64,000 nt of DNA from Saccharothrix syringae (lineage in GTDB: Bacteria; Actinomycetota; Actinomycetes; Mycobacteriales; Pseudonocardiaceae): positions 10,788,001 to 10,852,000 of the forward strand of contig NZ_CP034550.1 in the NCBI RefSeq assembly GCF_009498035.1, read 5' to 3'. Below the pieces are notes generated by a model. That model saw only the letters and a program-made list of their open reading frames with translations, made no database searches and was not told where the DNA came from. Both the position numbers and the translations under genes were made by a program. Below, piece by piece: positions 2,847 through 24,501 of this stretch. The stretch's first letter is position 1; each line of letters starts with the position of its first letter.

Positions 2847-2885
2847 GCTGATCTCCCCGGGCCGTCGTCGGGCGGGCCGGGAGGC

Positions 2886-2922
2886 AGGTGGGGTCTCCAG
2901 GACGCGGGAGGCCCCACCTTTG
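2886..2922 (+). terminator. Rho-independent terminator of the acyl-CoA dehydrogenase operon
   Basis: AGGTGGGG at 2886-2893 pairs with CCCCACCT at 2912-2919. The stem is extended inward by CTCC/GGAG around a short loop and is followed by TTTG. It lies 40 bp past the stop codon. Confidence 0.7.
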
Positions 2923-3282
2923 CCGAGTGAACCGGGGATGACTCCGCTGGGCCACGACCTACTACCGTGACCGCGCAGCAGTTCGACGTCGATCGAACGT
3001 ACCCAGGATTCGGGCTGGCCAAGCAGGTCGATCAAGTGCAAACATGTCGGCCATGTGCCGCACAGCTCCACCCGGTGCAGCGGTTGCTGCACACGACAGA
3101 GCCGTGGAGACTGGACTGGCGAACATTGCCCATCCTTTACCGGATAGGCCAGATGTCTCATCGATATGCATCTACAGGAGCGGTGAAGCAGTTTTTCAGG
3201 CGAACCAAGGAAAGACCAGCGGCTTCCCACCCGTCGAACGCCGACCGGAAAGTCGCAGTCCAAATCCACCTCGGACGTCGAC
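2923..3282. other. Gene-free left flank of the low-GC island
   Basis: I see no convincing gene here. GC content falls along this stretch and A/T-rich words appear (AGCAGTTTTTCAGGCGAACC near 3186). It is probably the left part of the acquired segment that carries the next two genes and should contain their promoter. I found no direct repeat, tRNA end or integrase remnant to mark a boundary. Confidence 0.4.
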
Positions 3283-3894
3283 ATGAACGCGACAGATCAA
3301 GGTTTATCCACCACCGAAGTGGAAGCAATAAGGCGGAATATCAGAAATCTGACTCCGGAGGAGTTTACCAACCACCACATCGTTGATCGGGTTCCGTACA
3401 TATTTTCGGACCGGAAGCAGTACGTCGAATGGAAGAGCCTCCTTGCTGCAGACCTGGATGTCGACCCATACACGATAGTGATCGTCGGCAGTTCGTGCCT
3501 CGGCTACAGCATCTCCCCAACCAAGCTCTTCAACCCTTTTCACCAGAGATCGGACATCGATGTCGCGGTCATCAGCTCCGCACACTTCGAACAAGCGTGG
3601 ACCTGGCTCCGACGCCCAGGGGTGCGCGACATGTTCGAGAGCAAACGGTGGCAACACTCGTTCGACGACCACCGTAGTCGCCTCGTATTCGACGGCGCAA
3701 TAGCTACGGACAAGATCCTGAACCGACTGCCGTACGGTCCCCAATGGGCTCGCGCACTACATCGAGCGGCGAACAGGGAGCCGACGACGAGAAGGACCAT
3801 CAAGGCACGTATATACAAAGACTTCGAAGCGCTGCGCACCTACCAGATCAGCAACGTTCGAACGATCAAACAGAAGTTGCTGTCAGAAGATTAA
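3283..3894 (+). CDS. Nucleotidyltransferase-fold protein (defence-like cassette)
   Basis: A 203-residue protein with signs of a nucleotidyltransferase fold: a GSS turn (residues 69-71 in IVIVGSSCLGYSISP) followed about 20 residues later by SDIDVAVISS, giving the paired metal-binding Asp91 and Asp93. A possible third acidic residue is Asp138 in VFDGAIATDK. It is shorter than CD-NTases. Base composition differs sharply from the neighbours (29 of 60 bases G/C at 3301-3360), and codon 8 is the rare Leu codon TTA. It ends 24 bp before a DUF262 gene, so the two probably form one transcript. Whether it transfers nucleotides to a protein, an RNA or a small molecule, or is inactive, cannot be told. 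The Shine-Dalgarno site is weak. Confidence 0.7.
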   Translation: MNATDQGLSTTEVEAIRRNIRNLTPEEFTNHHIVDRVPYIFSDRKQYVEWKSLLAADLDVDPYTIVIVGSSCLGYSISPTKLFNPFHQRSDIDVAVISSAHFEQAWTWLRRPGVRDMFESKRWQHSFDDHRSRLVFDGAIATDKILNRLPYGPQWARALHRAANREPTTRRTIKARIYKDFEALRTYQISNVRTIKQKLLSED

Positions 3895-3918
3895 CAGCAC
3901 CAGCACATGGAGCACCAG

Positions 3919-5088
3919 ATGGCCGCAAGCGGTGACGCTTCGAACAACCAGCGATTCCTCGACTCGGGACCGCAGACATTGGCATGGTTCAACAACCGCC
4001 TGCGCGCTGGCGAACTCGACATGAAACCCCCCTTCCAGCGCAACCCGGTCTGGCAGGAGAGACAGAAGACCTATCTGATCGACAGCATAATCCGCGGATA
4101 TCCGGTTCCGGAACTCTACCTGCAGACGATCGTGAACAACCTCGGCGAAGAGAAGCACGTGGTTGTGGACGGCCAACAGAGAATCCGTGCGTGCTTGGAG
4201 TTCGTCGCCGGAGAATTTGCCCTGGACGACCAGACCGACTACGAGGGACACCGGTTCGACGAGCTGCCCGAAGCCGTTCAGCAGAGGATATTCAAGTACA
4301 AGTTCGTCGTGCGCACATTGCCGGTACTCGAAGACAACGAGATTCGGGAGATCTTCGGTAGACTCAATCGAAACAATGTCGTACTAAATAAGCAGGAACT
4401 CAGATTCGCCACATACTGGGGCGAATTCATCGGCACAATGAAGGAACTCAGTCAACACCCGTTTTGGGTCTCCTCGGGACTTTTCACCGCTAATGATATC
4501 AGGCGCATGCTCGACACCGAGTACATCAGCGAGCTCGCCGTTGCCACGGTGTTCGGACCACAGAACAAGAAAACGAACTTGGACAGTTTCTACGCGGACT
4601 TCGAGGCCGAGTTCCCCGACAAAGAGCATGTGATCAGGATCTTCACCCTTGTGCTCGACGAACTCCTGCAACTGCTCGACTGGCCGACAAAGCTGCGCTG
4701 GTCCAGGAAGGTTGACTTCTACAGCCTGTTCCTGGTCCTCGTCGGCCGCGTGGGCGAACTCCCCTTTGACCGCAGCGAGCGCGAGGTCATACGGCAACGT
4801 CTCACTACCTTCTCCCAGAGCGTTACCCGAATCCTGAAGTTCACCGAGGGTCTCGATGCCGATGACGAACCCAAGGCAGCCCGCGCCTACTCACGAGGAG
4901 TCCGCAACTCAAGCGACTTGAACAGTCGCCGCATGCGGATTTCTTCACTCGACGCCTATCTTCGGGGTGATGATTTCGACCTACCGGTCTCGCCGAAGCT
5001 CGACAACGATCCGCTTCGGTCGTTGCCTTCACTGCAGGACTTGCTCGCACAGTACCCTGAAGACGAAGAGCCCGATAACGAAGAATAG
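3919..5088 (+). CDS. DUF262 domain protein (ParB/GmrS-like nuclease fold)
   Basis: A 389-residue protein with an N-terminal DUF262 domain: PPFQRNPVW (residues 37-45), IDSIIRGYPVPELYL (54-68) and the hallmark VVVDGQQRIRA (81-91). DUF262 occurs in the GmrSD type IV restriction enzyme and related anti-phage proteins, where the DGQQR region belongs to an NTP-dependent nuclease core. Here no C-terminal HNH/DUF1524 motif is visible; the second half is helical and acidic at its end. I chose ATG 3919 because GGAG lies six bases upstream; ATG 3907 is possible. GC is low (28 of 60 at 4381-4440). Pairing with the upstream NTase-like gene suggests a two-component defence or toxin system, which is inference. 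Confidence 0.82.
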   Translation: MAASGDASNNQRFLDSGPQTLAWFNNRLRAGELDMKPPFQRNPVWQERQKTYLIDSIIRGYPVPELYLQTIVNNLGEEKHVVVDGQQRIRACLEFVAGEFALDDQTDYEGHRFDELPEAVQQRIFKYKFVVRTLPVLEDNEIREIFGRLNRNNVVLNKQELRFATYWGEFIGTMKELSQHPFWVSSGLFTANDIRRMLDTEYISELAVATVFGPQNKKTNLDSFYADFEAEFPDKEHVIRIFTLVLDELLQLLDWPTKLRWSRKVDFYSLFLVLVGRVGELPFDRSEREVIRQRLTTFSQSVTRILKFTEGLDADDEPKAARAYSRGVRNSSDLNSRRMRISSLDAYLRGDDFDLPVSPKLDNDPLRSLPSLQDLLAQYPEDEEPDNEE

Positions 5089-5152
5089 TTTCCGGCCGTC
5101 GGGACTACAGGAACCGAACTCCGATGCGTGAATGGTTCACTCCGAGACCGGT

Positions 5153-5191
5153 GACGAGGACCTCGGCTCGGCCAAGGCCGAGGTCCTCGTC
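5153..5191. terminator. Perfect 15-bp hairpin between convergent genes
   Basis: GACGAGGACCTCGGC at 5153-5167 pairs without mismatch with GCCGAGGTCCTCGTC at 5177-5191 across a 9-nt loop. It lies between the DUF262 gene and the convergent MerR gene, so it can end transcription from either side. No U-run follows. Confidence 0.6.
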
Positions 5192-5280
5192 ATGGGCGTG
5201 ACACCACTGGATGCCAATAAGGCGCGACGGGTGTTCACGGATTCGGCGGAGACATCCGTGCCGCCTCGTGCGGGAACGGC

Positions 5281-6183
5281 CTACCTCATCGCCTCGACGA
5301 GCCAGGCCCGCTCCGCGGTCGTGTCCGGCACCGCGGGCCAGCCGTTGATCTTCGCGATCAGCGCCCAGTAGCGCTCGGCCCTCGGGTCGCCGAACTCCTC
5401 CAGCCGCCGGGCCAGTTGCGGGCCCACCGGGACGTCCAGGGCGGTCGACCACGTCTCCGCGATCCGCCGCACGATCGCCGCGGCCTCCTCCGACCCCGGG
5501 TCGACGCCCGAGTCCAGGGCCTCGCGCGCCAGGGCGATCGCCTGCCCGAACGCCTCCCGCTGCTCCGGCGCCGGACCCGACATGTCGGCGCCCTCGGCGC
5601 GCAGCTCCTGGTGCCGCTCGGACATCCGCCTGATCGAGGCCCGGAAGTCCGGGTCCTGGACCAGGTTCGCCAGCTCGATCCACGCCTCCAGCTGCTCGGA
5701 CGTCGGGTCGTCGGGCAGCTCGACGCGGACCGACCGCATCCCCTGCTCGAAGCCCGGCTCCAGCTCCAGCCCTCCGAAGACCTCGTCGAAGAAGTCGTCC
5801 AGGATCGCCTGCCGCTCCTGCTCGGACAGCCTGGCCAGTTCGTGCACCATCTCCACCTCCCCGTTCCGCGCCACCACGCGCAGCACGGCCCGGCGCAGCC
5901 GGAGCGTGCGCATCTGCGCGTCGATGGCCTCCGCGTGCGTCCGGGCCACCTCGGCCACGGACACCTCGCGCGCCAGCACCCGCTGCGCCGTGGGCAGGTC
6001 CACGCCCAGGTCGCGCAGGGTGCGCACGAGCTTGAGCCGCGCCAGCCCGTCGACGTCGTAGGTGCGGAAGCCGCCCGCGGTCCGCCCCGCCACCGGGACG
6101 AGGCCGGAGTCGGAGTAGAAGCGGACCGTCCTGGTGGACAGGCCGGTCATCCGCGCCAGGTCGCCGATCGAGTAGTGCGCCAC
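5281..6183 (-). CDS. MerR family transcriptional regulator
   Basis: A 300-residue regulator. The N-terminal MerR winged helix is clear (residues 4-70: YSIGDLARMTGLSTRTVRFY, then GLVPVAGRTAGGFRTYD). A helical region follows and then a long C-terminal domain with no Cys cluster, which argues against metal sensing. The GTG at 6181-6183 was chosen because AAGGTGG stands five bases upstream; longer forms would read through the operator. The dyad TCCAG-TCG-CTGGA directly upstream (6202-6214) is the usual autoregulatory MerR site. It lies divergently beside a membrane pentapeptide-repeat gene, which may be its target. Confidence 0.88.
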   Translation of the reverse strand: MAHYSIGDLARMTGLSTRTVRFYSDSGLVPVAGRTAGGFRTYDVDGLARLKLVRTLRDLGVDLPTAQRVLAREVSVAEVARTHAEAIDAQMRTLRLRRAVLRVVARNGEVEMVHELARLSEQERQAILDDFFDEVFGGLELEPGFEQGMRSVRVELPDDPTSEQLEAWIELANLVQDPDFRASIRRMSERHQELRAEGADMSGPAPEQREAFGQAIALAREALDSGVDPGSEEAAAIVRRIAETWSTALDVPVGPQLARRLEEFGDPRAERYWALIAKINGWPAVPDTTAERAWLVEAMR

Positions 6184-6194
6184 GGGGACCACCT

Positions 6195-6222
6195 TGGAAT
6201 CTCCAGTCGCTGGAACTTCAAC
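6195..6222. promoter_or_regulatory. MerR operator, dyad in divergent promoter
   Basis: The core TCCAG-TCG-CTGGA is a perfect 13-bp dyad at 6202-6214, flanked by imperfectly matching TTGGAA and TTCAA arms. It is placed 19 bp upstream of the MerR GTG start and 43 bp upstream of the divergent pentapeptide-repeat gene. MerR-type activators bind such dyads within the promoter spacer. Confidence 0.6.
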
Positions 6223-6257
6223 CCGATTAACCGCATGATCCGGCACGATCGCGGTTC

Positions 6258-7631
6258 GTGCGCGAAGCCCTCGACGTCCTCCGCCCCTACTGGCCCGCGC
6301 TCCTCGCGCTGCTGGCGCTGATCGCGGTGCGGCGGGCACTGCGCGCCGCGTACCTGCGGTGGACGGGCGGCAGGCCGCCGACGAGGCGCGCGACCCGCGA
6401 GGAGAGGCTGCTGACCGGCGCGCGCGGGCGGATGGCGTGGTCGGTGGCCCGGTGGCTGGCCGCGGCCGTGGTGCTGGCGGGCGCCACCGGGTTCGGGCTG
6501 TTCGTGCTGCTCGGCACGCCGCGGCTGCCGTCGAGCGACAGCTTCACCACCGCCGAGCTGCTGGAGCTGCTCAAGATCGGCCTGGCCGTGGTGGGCGGGC
6601 TGGGCGCGGTCGTGGCGCTGGCCGTCGCCTACCGCAGGCAGCAGGTGTCGGAGGCGGCGCACCACATCGCGACCCGGCAGGAGGAGCGCGAGCGGACGAA
6701 GTTCCACAACGAGCGCTACGGGGCCGCCGCCGAGCAGCTGGGGCACGAGCGGTTCGCGGTGCGCCTGGCCGGGGTGCACGCCATGATCAGCCTCGCGGAC
6801 GACTGGCCCGCGCAGCGGCAGATCTGCGTGGACGTGCTGTGCGCCTACCTGCGCACCCCCGTGCCCGAGGACGACCCCAACGAGGCCGAGGTGCGCCAGG
6901 TCGTCCTCACCGCCCTGCTGGAGCACGAGTGGCCGAACGGCGGCGCCCCGACGGTGGACCTGCGCAACGCGCGGCTGGTCGACCTGGACATGGCCAACCG
7001 CGTCTTCAAGGGCACCTTCATCTTCGACAACGCCCGGTTCGGCGGTGCGCGGACCAGTTTCGAGGGCGCCGAGTTCCTGGGCCGGACGAGCTTCCGGGGC
7101 GCCGAGTTCACCGCCCACCGGACCGTCTTCAGCGCCGCGTCGGCGGTGCGGGCCGACCTGGACTTCACCGGGGCGACCTTCGCCGGCGGCTCGGTCGACT
7201 TCACCCACGCCCGGCTCTCCGAAGCCTCGGTGCACTTCGAGCGGGTCCGGGTGGACGGCACCGCGTTCGACTTCCGGGGGACGGAGCTGTCGGGAAGCAC
7301 CCTGTCGTTCCGGCGGGCGCACCTGCGCGACACCGCGCTGTCCCTCGCCCACGTGATCCTGGGCAGGCGGCTCGGCCGGGTGGGCGTCTTGCGGCTGAGC
7401 GAGGTCGACGCGGAGCGCACGGCGATCGACTTCGAGTCGTGCCGGCTGGTCAACGCGGTCGTGGAGGTGCGGGAGGCGCGATTCGCCGACTGCCGCCTGG
7501 AGCACTTCCCGACCGGCGAGCAGGTGGTCGTCCTGCGCGACGAGGGGGCCGAGCCCGCGGAGTTCGCGGCGGAGCTGCGGGCGGTGCTCGGTGCCGGGGA
7601 CCGCGAGGCCCCCGGCACCGGGCGCGCCTAG
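6258..7631 (+). CDS. Membrane-anchored pentapeptide-repeat protein
   Basis: A 457-residue protein. The N-terminal region has hydrophobic segments (about residues 10-28, 62-84 and 104-124). A cytosolic helical part follows (RRQQVSEAAHHIATRQEERERTKFHNERYGAAAEQLG). The second half carries degenerate pentapeptide repeats of the A(D/N)Lxx or xFxGA kind (VDLRNARLVDLDMANRVF, ARFGGARTSFEGAEFLG, FRGAEFTAH), predicted to form a right-handed beta-helix. Membrane proteins of this layout are common in actinobacteria without a known role. The GTG start has no clear Shine-Dalgarno. The stop codon overlaps the convergent E2 gene stop by 4 bp (7628-7631). Confidence 0.8.
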   Translation: MREALDVLRPYWPALLALLALIAVRRALRAAYLRWTGGRPPTRRATREERLLTGARGRMAWSVARWLAAAVVLAGATGFGLFVLLGTPRLPSSDSFTTAELLELLKIGLAVVGGLGAVVALAVAYRRQQVSEAAHHIATRQEERERTKFHNERYGAAAEQLGHERFAVRLAGVHAMISLADDWPAQRQICVDVLCAYLRTPVPEDDPNEAEVRQVVLTALLEHEWPNGGAPTVDLRNARLVDLDMANRVFKGTFIFDNARFGGARTSFEGAEFLGRTSFRGAEFTAHRTVFSAASAVRADLDFTGATFAGGSVDFTHARLSEASVHFERVRVDGTAFDFRGTELSGSTLSFRRAHLRDTALSLAHVILGRRLGRVGVLRLSEVDAERTAIDFESCRLVNAVVEVREARFADCRLEHFPTGEQVVVLRDEGAEPAEFAAELRAVLGAGDREAPGTGRA

Positions 7632-16589: not shown

Positions 16590-17408
16590 GTGGCCCGTCG
16601 TACCAGGCACGCTGCGCTCGCCCTGTTCCCCGTGCTCGCCCTGGCGGCCACGATGACGGCGTGCGCGACCAAGGTCAACACCGGCTCGACCGACACCGGG
16701 TCGGGCATCACCCTGGTCCAGAGCGGGAAGCTGGTCACCTGCACCCACCTGTCCTACAAGCCCTTCCAGTACTCGGAGGGCGACAAGACCGTCGGCTTCG
16801 ACGTCGACCTGGTCGACCTGGTGGCCAAGGAGCTGGGCGTCACGCAGGAGATCTTCGACACGCCGTTCGAGACGATCACCTCCGGCGAGGCGTTCAACAC
16901 CAACAAGTGCGACCTCGCCGCCGCCGGCATGACCATCAACGACAAGCGCAAGGAGGCGATCGACTTCTCCGACCCGTACTTCGACGCCTCGCAGGCGCTG
17001 CTGGTCAAGGGCGACTCGGGCATCAAGGGCCTGGAGGACCTCAACGGCAAGAAGATCGGCGTGCAGCTGGAGACCACCGGCGAGCAGTACGCCAACGAGA
17101 ACGCCGCCAAGTTCGGCTACACGGTCGTGCAGTTCGAGGACCTGCCGCTGATGGAGACCGCCGTGCGCACCGGCGCGGTCGACGCGGCCATCAACGACAA
17201 CGGCGTGCTCTACGACTACGTCAAGGAGTTCCCCGACACCGCCGTGACGAAGGAGTTCGACACCGGCGAGCAGTACGGCATCGGTCTGAAGAAGGGCAAC
17301 TCCGCGCTCCAGACCAAGGTCAACGACGTGCTGAAGAAGGCCAAGGACAACGGCGAGTACGACAAGATCTACGAGAAGTGGTTCGGCAAGAAGCCGGAGT
17401 CGAAGTAA
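16590..17408 (+). CDS. Amino acid ABC transporter substrate-binding lipoprotein
   Basis: A 272-residue solute-binding protein of family 3 (polar amino acids). The lipobox LALAATMTAC puts the lipidated Cys near residue 25. Binding-fold motifs follow: GKLVTCTHLSYKPFQYSEGDKTVGFDVDLVDLVAKELG, AAAGMTINDKRKEAIDFSDPYFDASQALLVK, GKKIGVQLETTGEQYANEN. I chose GTG 16590 because GAGGAG lies nine bases upstream; a longer reading adds a non-signal-like leader. It is first in an operon with a permease and an ATPase. The ligand is probably a polar amino acid such as glutamate, glutamine or cystine, but this is not resolvable here. Confidence 0.9.
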   Translation: MARRTRHAALALFPVLALAATMTACATKVNTGSTDTGSGITLVQSGKLVTCTHLSYKPFQYSEGDKTVGFDVDLVDLVAKELGVTQEIFDTPFETITSGEAFNTNKCDLAAAGMTINDKRKEAIDFSDPYFDASQALLVKGDSGIKGLEDLNGKKIGVQLETTGEQYANENAAKFGYTVVQFEDLPLMETAVRTGAVDAAINDNGVLYDYVKEFPDTAVTKEFDTGEQYGIGLKKGNSALQTKVNDVLKKAKDNGEYDKIYEKWFGKKPESK

Positions 17409-17421
17409 CGGCTCGAACGGC

Positions 17422-17450
17422 GGGGTCGGTGCTCACGAAGCACCGGCCCC
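17422..17450 (+). other. Intercistronic hairpin after the binding-protein gene
   Basis: GGGGTCGGTGCT (17422-17433) pairs with AGCACCGGCCCC (17439-17450) with one G-U pair. Such hairpins after binding-protein genes often protect the mRNA 3' end and allow more binding protein than permease to be made. Confidence 0.6.
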
Positions 17451-17486
17451 GCGCCTTGTCCACCCCACCCACGAGGTAAAAACCCC

Positions 17487-22626: not shown

Positions 22627-22866
22627 CAGTGCCGGGGGCGATGGCCGCGGGTAGTGCCGGAGGGCGATAACCGCAGGTAGTGGCCGCGCAGGTGGTAGCC
22701 GCAAGGTGGGGCGTGGGAGTCGGCGGGTGCTGGGGCCGGGACCGGCCCGGCCCCAGCTGGGCCGTCAGACGTCGTCAGGCGCGATCAGGCGCCGAACGTG
22801 ATCGGGGCGATCAGGCGTCGACAGCACCGAACCGCGCCGCGAACGAACGCCGAACACCGCACGTGC

Positions 22867-24501
22867 TCAGTGCGCCGCCACGGGCTTCACGCGGTTGCTG
22901 TCCTCGTCCACGTGGTAGTCGTCGGCGTCGGTCTCGTCCGTGCCGTTGAAGACGCGGGCCTTCCGGGCGATCAGCGTGACCACCACCGCCACCAGCAGGT
23001 TGGCCAGGACGGCCACCGCGCCGACGTACACCTGCACCGTCGACCCGGCGAACGGGTGCCAGCCGAACAGCGAGAGGTTGCCCAGCGGCAGCGCGGAACC
23101 GGCGAAGTGGGCCTTGCCGATCGCCGGGTTGCCGATGTTGTAGAGCAGCCACATGCCGTAGCCCATGCCGGCGACCCAGCCGGCGATGAGGCCCCACACG
23201 TGGAACCACCGCGTGTACAGCGCGATCGCCACGGCGGGCAGCGTCTGCAGGATCATCACGCCGCCGATGAGCTGGAGGTCGATGGAGAACTGCGGGTCGA
23301 CGAACACGATGAACGCGACCGCGCCGAACTTGACCACCAGCGACGCGAGCTTGGCCTGCTTGGCCTCCTGGGCGGGGCTGGCGTCCTTCTTCAGGTACTC
23401 CTTGTAGACGTTGCGGGTCCACAGGTTCGCCGCGGCGATGGACATGATCGCGGCCGGGACCAGGGCGCCGATGCCGATGGCCGCGAACGCGATGCCGGCG
23501 AACCAGGAGGGGAACTCCTGGCCGAACAGCGACGGGATGATCGTGTTGGTGTCGGGGCGGCCGGTGGCCTGGTTGGTGATGGGCTTGACGCCGGCGCTGA
23601 TGGCGACGAAGCCGAGCATCGCCAGCAGGCCCAGGAGCAGCGAGTACGCCGGCAGGGCGACCATGTTCCGCTTGATCACGTTGCGGCCGCGCGAGGCGAG
23701 GATGCCGGTCAGCGAGTGCGGGTACAGGAACAGCGCCAGGGCGGAGCCCAGGGCGAGGGTGGCGTACTGGAGCTGGTTGTTGGCGGTGAGCAGGATGCCG
23801 TCGGCCTTGGACTCGGTCGCGGCGTACTTGGCCTGCGCGCCGTCGAAGATGGCGCCCCAGCCGCCGAACTTGGTGGGCAGGTAGACGACGGCGACGAGGA
23901 TGACCAGGTAGATCAGGGTGTCCTTGACGAACGCGATCAGCGCGGGGGCGCGCAGGCCCGACTGGTAGGTGTAGAGCGCGAGGATCACGAACGCGATGAA
24001 CAGCGGCAGGTGGCCGAGGATGCCGCCGCCGTTGAGGCCCATGGTGCGCAGGACGGCTTCGAGGCCGACGAGCTGGAGCGCGATGTAGGGCATGGTGGCG
24101 ACGATGCCGGTGATGGCGACGAGCAGCGCCAGCCAGTGGGAGCCGTAGCGGCCGCGGACGAAGTCGGCCGGGGTCACGTAGCCGTGGACCCGGGACACCG
24201 ACCACATGCGCACCAGCGGGAGGAACACGATCGGGTAGAGCACGACCGTGTAGGGCAGGGCGTAGAAGCCCAGCGCGCCGGAGCCGAAGACCAGGGCGGG
24301 CACCGCCACGAACGTGTAGGCGGTGTAGAGGTCGCCGCCGACGAGGAACCAGGTGATCCAGGAGCCGAACTTGCGGCCGCCCAGGCCCCATTCGTCGAGG
24401 TGGTCGAGGGTGTTGCCGGCCTTCCACCGCGCGGCCATGAAGCCGAGCGCGGTGACGAGCAGGAACAGCGCGCTGAAGACCACCAGTTCGGTCCACTGCA
24501 T
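22867..24501 (-). CDS. Sodium:solute symporter (monocarboxylate type)
   Basis: A 544-residue SSS-family symporter with about thirteen hydrophobic helices. Family marks are the first-helix region followed by HLDEWGLGGRKFGSWITWFLVGGDLYTAYTF, the GYVTPADFVRGRYGSHWLALLVA segment, and the conserved LVPAAIMSIAAANLWTRNVYKEYL. The pairing with a DUF3311 small protein is typical of ActP/MctC-like transporters for acetate, pyruvate or other short carboxylates. Its ATG directly follows the DUF3311 stop codon. A nearby GntR gene transcribed in the same direction may control it. Confidence 0.9.
   Translation of the reverse strand: MQWTELVVFSALFLLVTALGFMAARWKAGNTLDHLDEWGLGGRKFGSWITWFLVGGDLYTAYTFVAVPALVFGSGALGFYALPYTVVLYPIVFLPLVRMWSVSRVHGYVTPADFVRGRYGSHWLALLVAITGIVATMPYIALQLVGLEAVLRTMGLNGGGILGHLPLFIAFVILALYTYQSGLRAPALIAFVKDTLIYLVILVAVVYLPTKFGGWGAIFDGAQAKYAATESKADGILLTANNQLQYATLALGSALALFLYPHSLTGILASRGRNVIKRNMVALPAYSLLLGLLAMLGFVAISAGVKPITNQATGRPDTNTIIPSLFGQEFPSWFAGIAFAAIGIGALVPAAIMSIAAANLWTRNVYKEYLKKDASPAQEAKQAKLASLVVKFGAVAFIVFVDPQFSIDLQLIGGVMILQTLPAVAIALYTRWFHVWGLIAGWVAGMGYGMWLLYNIGNPAIGKAHFAGSALPLGNLSLFGWHPFAGSTVQVYVGAVAVLANLLVAVVVTLIARKARVFNGTDETDADDYHVDEDSNRVKPVAAH

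Follow-up and report, generated by a model that had tools for sequence, protein, structure and literature searches.

A linked nucleotidyltransferase–DUF262 gene pair, spread among bacteria by horizontal transfer, is a candidate two-component anti-phage module

DUF262 proteins are known from several bacterial defence systems. In BrxU and SspE, DUF262 is the NTPase or sensor part of the protein and the damage is done by another domain (PMC10952713; this and the other papers are cited for those passages of them that were available). PD-T4-2 is described as DUF262 with a HEPN protein and Menshen as DUF262 with a predicted OLD nuclease (PMC10952713), and deletion of PD-T4-2 led to higher T4 plaquing (PMC9519451). 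The predicted three-gene system ptuXYZ combines the HNH-less DUF262 protein PtuX, encoded by the first gene, with an ATPase and a toxin-type PIN/BECR effector, an RNase (PMC11980606). Here we describe two adjacent genes of Saccharothrix syringae in which a DUF262 protein is paired with a small nucleotidyltransferase (NTase) instead. They lie in a stretch of 64 kb, referred to below as the window, at positions 10788001-10852000 of the single contig of a 10.93-Mb genome. The two genes travel as one closely linked mobile unit, and their products probably cooperate in a hitherto undescribed anti-phage switch.

The first gene (3283..3894, + strand) encodes a 203-residue protein that was assigned to the DNA polymerase beta (Pol-beta) type of NTase from its open reading frame (ORF), an alignment of 100 sequences and a predicted structure. 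The second gene (3907..5088, + strand) encodes a 393-residue DUF262 (GmrSD_N) protein without an HNH part, identified through PF03235 and PADLOC matches. The gap between the two ORFs is 12 bases, and an alternative in-frame ATG at 3919 would give a DUF262 protein of 389 residues. The original prediction, made from the letters of the window, had described just such an NTase-like gene next to a DUF262 gene with a DGQQR motif, and both ORFs were recovered where it had placed them. It had also called the pair a low-G+C island on the basis of sampled blocks at 47-48% G+C. The composition is indeed distinct, with 54.6% G+C in the NTase ORF, 56.5% in the DUF262 ORF and 55.9% in the pair as a whole against 72.7% in the window, and with this window as background none of 622 sliding blocks of 1806 bases goes below the pair. 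The difference is milder than first sampled, since no more than 3 of the pair's 31 sixty-base blocks have a G+C of 48% or less and the sampled values therefore represent the low end.

The association of the two genes recurs widely. When the NTase alignment was used to scan named bacterial genomes, it found at least 74 loci, and the 74 listed loci fall into at least eight phyla, eight being named and one locus having no phylum assigned. A DUF262 ORF is the next downstream gene on the same strand in 72 of these loci. The first part of a DUF262 gene at a contig edge (L044) makes a 73rd paired locus, and the 74th (L059) is cut by a contig edge, so the co-occurrence on which the two-component idea of the original prediction depended was borne out. 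The NTase stop codon lies at most 20 bases from the nearest possible DUF262 start, or overlaps it, in 64 of 66 measured loci, a count that omits the eight of the 74 loci without a complete or intact partner. The distance matrices of the two proteins correlate with r = 0.93 over 100 pairs (92 distinct NTases), a value that none of 2000 shuffles reached (maximum 0.08). Because related sequences share ancestry, this correlation shows co-inheritance and is no proof of contact. A recurring third gene was sought around the pair and not found: among 79 same-strand downstream neighbours no family turns up more than twice, AAA_21 being matched by two of them. In a cyanobacterium, the two proteins are naturally fused (L062, 4042-5667, + strand); the GS motif of this fusion has become RS, its NTase domain is perhaps inactive, and it lies outside the 100-sequence alignment. 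A search aimed at further fusions returned this protein itself alone.

The GS and SDxD residues expected of an active NTase are strictly kept in the family alignment. G69-S70 (codons at 3487..3492, + strand) and residues S90, D91 and D93 of the motif S90-D91-I92-D93 (3550..3561, + strand) do not vary in any of the 100 aligned family sequences, which settles in its favour the motif conservation that the original prediction had put up for checking. In the Pol-beta superfamily, the SDxD motif binds metal. D143 (3709..3711, + strand) is likely the third catalytic acid, judging from the alignment, in which 85 of the 100 sequences carry D at this position and 12 of the remaining 15 carry an acidic residue one position earlier. 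The window NTase alone has no significant match in Pfam, NCBIfam or PADLOC. Its 100 relatives give weak Pfam matches at E values up to 1, 40 of them to NTP_transf_2 (best 0.00035) and 20 to Polbeta (best 0.00028), and the models of PADLOC 2.0.0 yield scattered weak matches that touch six families, each in no more than two of the 100 members. The predicted structure (pLDDT 93.4, pTM 0.88) has helices flanking the core on both sides, and its matches in the PDB have low Z scores, with Pol-beta-type NTases making up 8 of the 10 listed rows. Compared with the PDB as a single sequence, the NTase gives weak, unrelated matches at most, and as a profile it matches 1ylq alone (E 0.13). From its sequence, the gene at 3283-3894 carries the GS and DxD motifs of a Pol-beta-type NTase, and the structure prediction together with the weak matches suggests the corresponding fold. 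In two annotated records, those of Escherichia coli strain 1500 and plasmid pA84-3, the NTase is labelled hypothetical protein.

The DUF262 protein of the window matches PF03235 (GmrSD_N/DUF262) at 3e-22, and at E values up to 1 it matches no HNH model and no other Pfam family, in agreement with the original description of a protein lacking an HNH part. The DUF1524 HNH nuclease is absent from both proteins of the pair at the same Pfam threshold, the outer neighbours being judged by eye alone. Among PADLOC models, NsnA is the best match (3.1e-39), a name that we take to refer to Menshen, followed by PD-T4-2_A (9.7e-21); across the family, PD-T4-2_A matches 86 of 86 members and REase_II 85 of 86. 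The family profile reaches PDB entry 7p9k, presumably BrxU, at 8.6e-7. The single window sequence finds one chain, which is unrelated (0.83). The nucleotide-pocket motif DGQQR (residues 88-92, codons at 4168..4182, + strand), whose role is known from other DUF262 proteins (PMC10952713), is conserved in 86 of 86 family members.

How the pair compares with described systems depends on the partner. It resembles type IV restriction proteins such as GmrSD, BrxU and SspE in its DUF262 protein with DGQQR and in the profile match to 7p9k. It differs in having an NTase in place of the DUF1524 HNH nuclease, and membership of GmrSD was ruled out by the lack of HNH. With PD-T4-2 it shares a compact DUF262 protein without DUF1524 and a two-gene layout, represented in PADLOC by A and B models. 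The partner of PD-T4-2 is HEPN rather than NTase, and in the DUF262-HEPN loci seen here the HEPN gene is downstream. The window pair was rejected as a PD-T4-2 member for its wrong partner, the NTase being upstream and the downstream gene, MerR-like by eye, lying on the opposite strand. The likeness to Menshen lies in the NsnA match and in a DUF262 protein without HNH; the OLD partner and the lack of a recurring third gene set the two apart. Membership of Menshen was likewise rejected for wrong partners, as no same-strand gene follows the window pair and no Nsn model is among the PADLOC matches of the NTases, although PADLOC presumably contains NsnB and NsnC models. The ptuXYZ system, likened here by description, has an HNH-less DUF262 protein and a toxin-type effector, but it has three genes, an RNase effector and no NTase. 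Finally, a small Pol-beta-type NTase heads a two-gene unit also in the systems of minimal nucleotidyltransferases (MNTs) with HEPN proteins. Here the second gene encodes DUF262 and not HEPN in 73 of the 74 listed loci, the other being cut at the contig edge. The window NTase is further set apart by its 203 residues, by the helices on both sides of its core and by the 20 residues from S70 to D91, a spacing that exceeds that of typical MNTs.

The absence of HNH, which the original prediction had counted among the novel points, is not new, since Menshen, PD-T4-2 and PtuX are already published examples of HNH-less DUF262 defence proteins (PMC10952713, PMC11980606). The new element is the NTase partner. 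No NTase–DUF262 system is described in the available passages of the open-licence literature searched, supplements lying outside its scope, and the passages available of PMC12839542, PMC3874153, PMC4619093 and PMC12409362 do not mention the pair.

The pair sits in an interval (2847..5280; 2440 bp here) between an acyl-CoA dehydrogenase gene (1632-2846, + strand) and a MerR/TipA-like gene (5281-6339, - strand), both named by eye. None of 59 relatives, of which 24 belong to the same genus, has the NTase, and it occurs in 4 of 394 class-level genomes, that of the window included. Of the 23 same-genus relatives searched, 21 have both flanking genes, separated by no more than 12.5 kb. The interval between them is near-empty (74-684 bp) in 9 of these 21 and measures 1.5-12.4 kb in the other 12. 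In three of the 12 long intervals (G004, G012, G014) the flanking genes have the same orientation, unlike those of the window; in the other nine, the gene content varies by genome and is partly of low G+C. Within the genus, the two flanking genes enclose a variable insertion site (L192-L209). Across the family, the pair has a lower G+C than its surroundings at each of the 62 measured loci (from L002-L075, flanks longer than 4 kb), with a median difference of -14 points. Phyla are intermixed on the NTase tree, where their labels require 21 changes for eight phyla, compared with a minimum of 7 and with 41.5 for shuffled labels. From these sequence comparisons, we consider the pair to be horizontally acquired.

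Several genes in the intervals of the relatives are of a kind worth recording. One interval encodes a low-G+C protein of 1085 residues with a leucine-rich-repeat region (L198), another a protein with a weak HtpG match (0.0024) that we read as a GHKL ATPase (L196), and a third an IS30-like transposase, recognized by eye (L194). A helix-turn-helix/ImmA-like gene adjoining a PIN-like gene was likewise noticed by eye in the long intervals. The window also contains genes for tRNA-Thr (17396-17469) and tRNA-Leu (22829-22917), neither of them close to the pair.

Copies of the pair occur in mobile elements. In E. coli strain 1500, the sole match in 5426 E. coli genomes at the sensitivity used with a Lelliottia query (a Vibrio query agrees), the pair lies between P2-type replication endonuclease and portal genes. 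This is the gpA-gpQ interval of P2, a hotspot of anti-phage genes (PMC9122126). The 6.2-kb plasmid pA84-3 carries a copy; searches of plasmids gave one full match and one other that is weak and covers a third of the query. The NTase is upstream in 16 of 80 DUF262 loci fetched from viral contigs, and phage records held no match to three NTase queries. The original proposal of a candidate defence system gains from this context, which supports a putative conflict or defence role through horizontal acquisition, the variable site, the P2 hotspot, the small plasmid, restriction-modification neighbours in one clade (see below) and the homology to NsnA and PD-T4-2_A.

The partners of related DUF262 proteins bear on which protein does what. 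When 157 DUF262 loci were classed by script for partner type, the NTase was directly upstream in 100 and broken or fused in 2 more, a downstream ORF had a HEPN-like motif in 41 (37 credible on recount), a RelA/SpoT gene was downstream in 2, and 12 had no partner. NTase and HEPN motif occurred together in none of the 157. The HEPN-like motif is probably a chance occurrence in four near-identical ORFs of 619-622 residues (L153-L156), which lie on four viral contigs and overlap by 29 bases the end of a preceding gene for a 441-residue DUF262 protein. In Pfam, where one protein may match several families, 39 downstream partners gave 18 matches to RiboL-PSP HEPN, 16 to MAE_28990 HEPN, 3 to Swt1-like HEPN and 2 to RelA_SpoT. 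The PD-T4-2_B model matches one of these 39, weakly, so the DUF262-HEPN loci are related to PD-T4-2 but are a different system. The non-NTase partners occur on compact DUF262 proteins with lower scores against the profile of the window family. At scores of at least 285, 101 of 102 loci are NTase-paired and the remaining one is unpartnered in the table; at L104 (score 294) an NTase is at the contig edge. A tree of 147 DUF262 domains places the window in NTase-only sets of 4 and 21 rows (SH-aLRT 100 and 99), and one supported level further out, 58 rows include both NTase- and HEPN-paired proteins; four changes are needed to explain the three partner labels on the tree. The RelA/SpoT-domain genes, a third partner type, lie directly downstream of compact DUF262 genes at L096 (6059-7057, - strand) and L131 (7023-8045, + strand). 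At L097, an SRA-HNH gene (PF02182, PF13391; 6963-7895, + strand) immediately precedes a DUF262 gene that is followed by a gene with a HEPN-like motif. HEPN genes are known in operons with ParB-type genes, and HEPN is an effector or toxin fold in known systems (PMC3710099), as is RelA/SpoT according to an abstract on toxSAS.

We favour, at somewhat short of an even chance, the reading that the pair is a mobile two-component anti-phage, toxin-like module in which sensing and switching fall to the DUF262 protein and the NTase acts as effector. The DUF262 protein would act as an NTP-dependent switch that binds and restrains, or else activates, the NTase, and would read a signal of invasion, probably a state of the DNA such as its modification. 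Once released, the NTase would transfer nucleotides to a cellular target, most likely an RNA 3' end or a protein, and this transfer would halt growth or phage production. These roles follow from partner logic, since DUF262 is the NTPase or sensor part in BrxU and SspE and HNH-less DUF262 proteins are paired with OLD, HEPN or PIN/BECR proteins. The view of the NTase as an interchangeable effector is supported by related DUF262 proteins, whose partner is HEPN or RelA/SpoT instead. The pattern of losses, from few loci, leans the same way: among 103 loci, a broken or gapped NTase accompanies an intact DUF262 gene at five (L017, L051, L055, L137, L047), the NTase of the fusion at L062 has the altered GS motif, and the reverse is seen at two (L035, L050), although sequencing errors could explain some of these cases. 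Gene order weighs on the other side, as the NTase is encoded by the first gene, like MNT antitoxins, whereas the HEPN and RelA/SpoT partners are second genes.

Setting partner logic and loss patterns against this opposing gene order, we regard the converse assignment as unlikely, yet as the chief competitor. Here the effector would be the DUF262 protein, as a ParB/Srx-like nuclease or a restriction subunit, and the NTase encoded upstream would serve as controller or antitoxin, for example by nucleotidylating it, a mode of action proposed for MNTs with HEPN toxins. The 5' position shared with MNT antitoxins (PMC3710099) fits a controller, and of three NTase profiles compared the MNT-like PF01909 set alone aligned both GS and DxD with the family, a weak and partly underpowered comparison. 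A nuclease would be consistent with the REase_II match in nearly every family member and with the naming of DUF262 proteins as ParB-type nucleases (PMC3710099, PMC11980606). On the other hand, related DUF262 proteins pair with effector-like HEPN or RelA/SpoT enzymes, the nuclease of BrxU and SspE resides elsewhere than in their DUF262 domain (PMC10952713), and the NTase is more frequently broken than DUF262, though at few loci.

An improbable alternative is a restriction-modification-like system in which the pair does the restricting: DUF262, with the NTase, would attack DNA according to the absence or presence of a cytosine mark, placed by a methyltransferase that is encoded next to the pair or acts in trans. 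In favour of such a link, 14 of the 74 listed loci (L021, L026, L028-L033, L035, L036, L044, L045, L058, L072) have a C5 methyltransferase gene immediately before the pair and in the same orientation, some with Vsr-like genes nearby. Pfam matches among 108 same-strand upstream neighbours (110-1100 residues, within three genes; 25 of 138 families listed) included, as raw counts, 18 C5 methyltransferases, 4 Vsr, 4 EcoO109I and 2 TdeIII. With PADLOC, the 25 families listed out of 113 for these neighbours were all methyltransferase models, a listing in which other kinds of defence gene would not be visible. However, the methyltransferase link belongs mainly to one clostridial group (10 of the 14 loci are in Clostridia), and in the loci nearest the window (L002-L020) no member of the C5 methyltransferase cluster, the one cluster considered, lies within five genes of the pair. 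We know of no restriction subunit that is an NTase, which also counts against this explanation. A methylase gene of another type, for N6/N4 DNA methylation (PF01555), was observed at L100 (9327-10244, + strand) about 440 bp downstream of an NTase–DUF262 pair on the same strand.

A role outside defence, as a selfish toxin-antitoxin or regulatory pair for the maintenance of a plasmid or other element, seems rather remote: the rare and patchy distribution and the copy on a small plasmid would suit it, and the homology of the DUF262 protein to PADLOC defence proteins, the copy in the P2 hotspot and the restriction-modification neighbours in one clade argue against it. A little more remote still is a CBASS-like arrangement (cyclic oligonucleotide-based anti-phage signalling system), in which the NTase would make a nucleotide second messenger that activates DUF262; a Pol-beta-type NTase with conserved GS and SDxD adjoining an effector-like gene and one weak match to PADLOC Cyclase among 100 relatives (0.0085) recall it, but the 25 Pfam families listed out of 28 for these relatives do not include SMODS, the NTase has only about 203 residues, strict one-partner pairing with co-divergence suggests direct contact over a diffusible signal, and the SMODS set in the profile comparison, being one sequence, says little.

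The pair joins two families of disputed role, stand-alone DUF262 proteins, seen as sensor or nuclease, and orphan small NTases, seen as toxin, antitoxin or signal maker. It is compact, its active-site residues are clear and it occurs in at least eight phyla, so that the division of labour between its proteins is directly testable. The results suggest that an NsnA-like or PD-T4-2_A-like DUF262 gene that lacks its usual partner may be part of a wider family of modules whose partners are exchangeable. More broadly, it is possible, if on balance doubtful, that compact DUF262 proteins provide a common sensing platform to which different toxic enzymes are fitted, namely HEPN ribonucleases, RelA/SpoT-type synthetases and undescribed toxic NTases, the last of which would act on an RNA 3' end or a protein once foreign or wrongly modified DNA is sensed by DUF262. 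If compact DUF262 proteins do serve as such a platform, the NTases described here would be a new class of phage-triggered toxin, held under an NTP-driven switch instead of a classical antitoxin.
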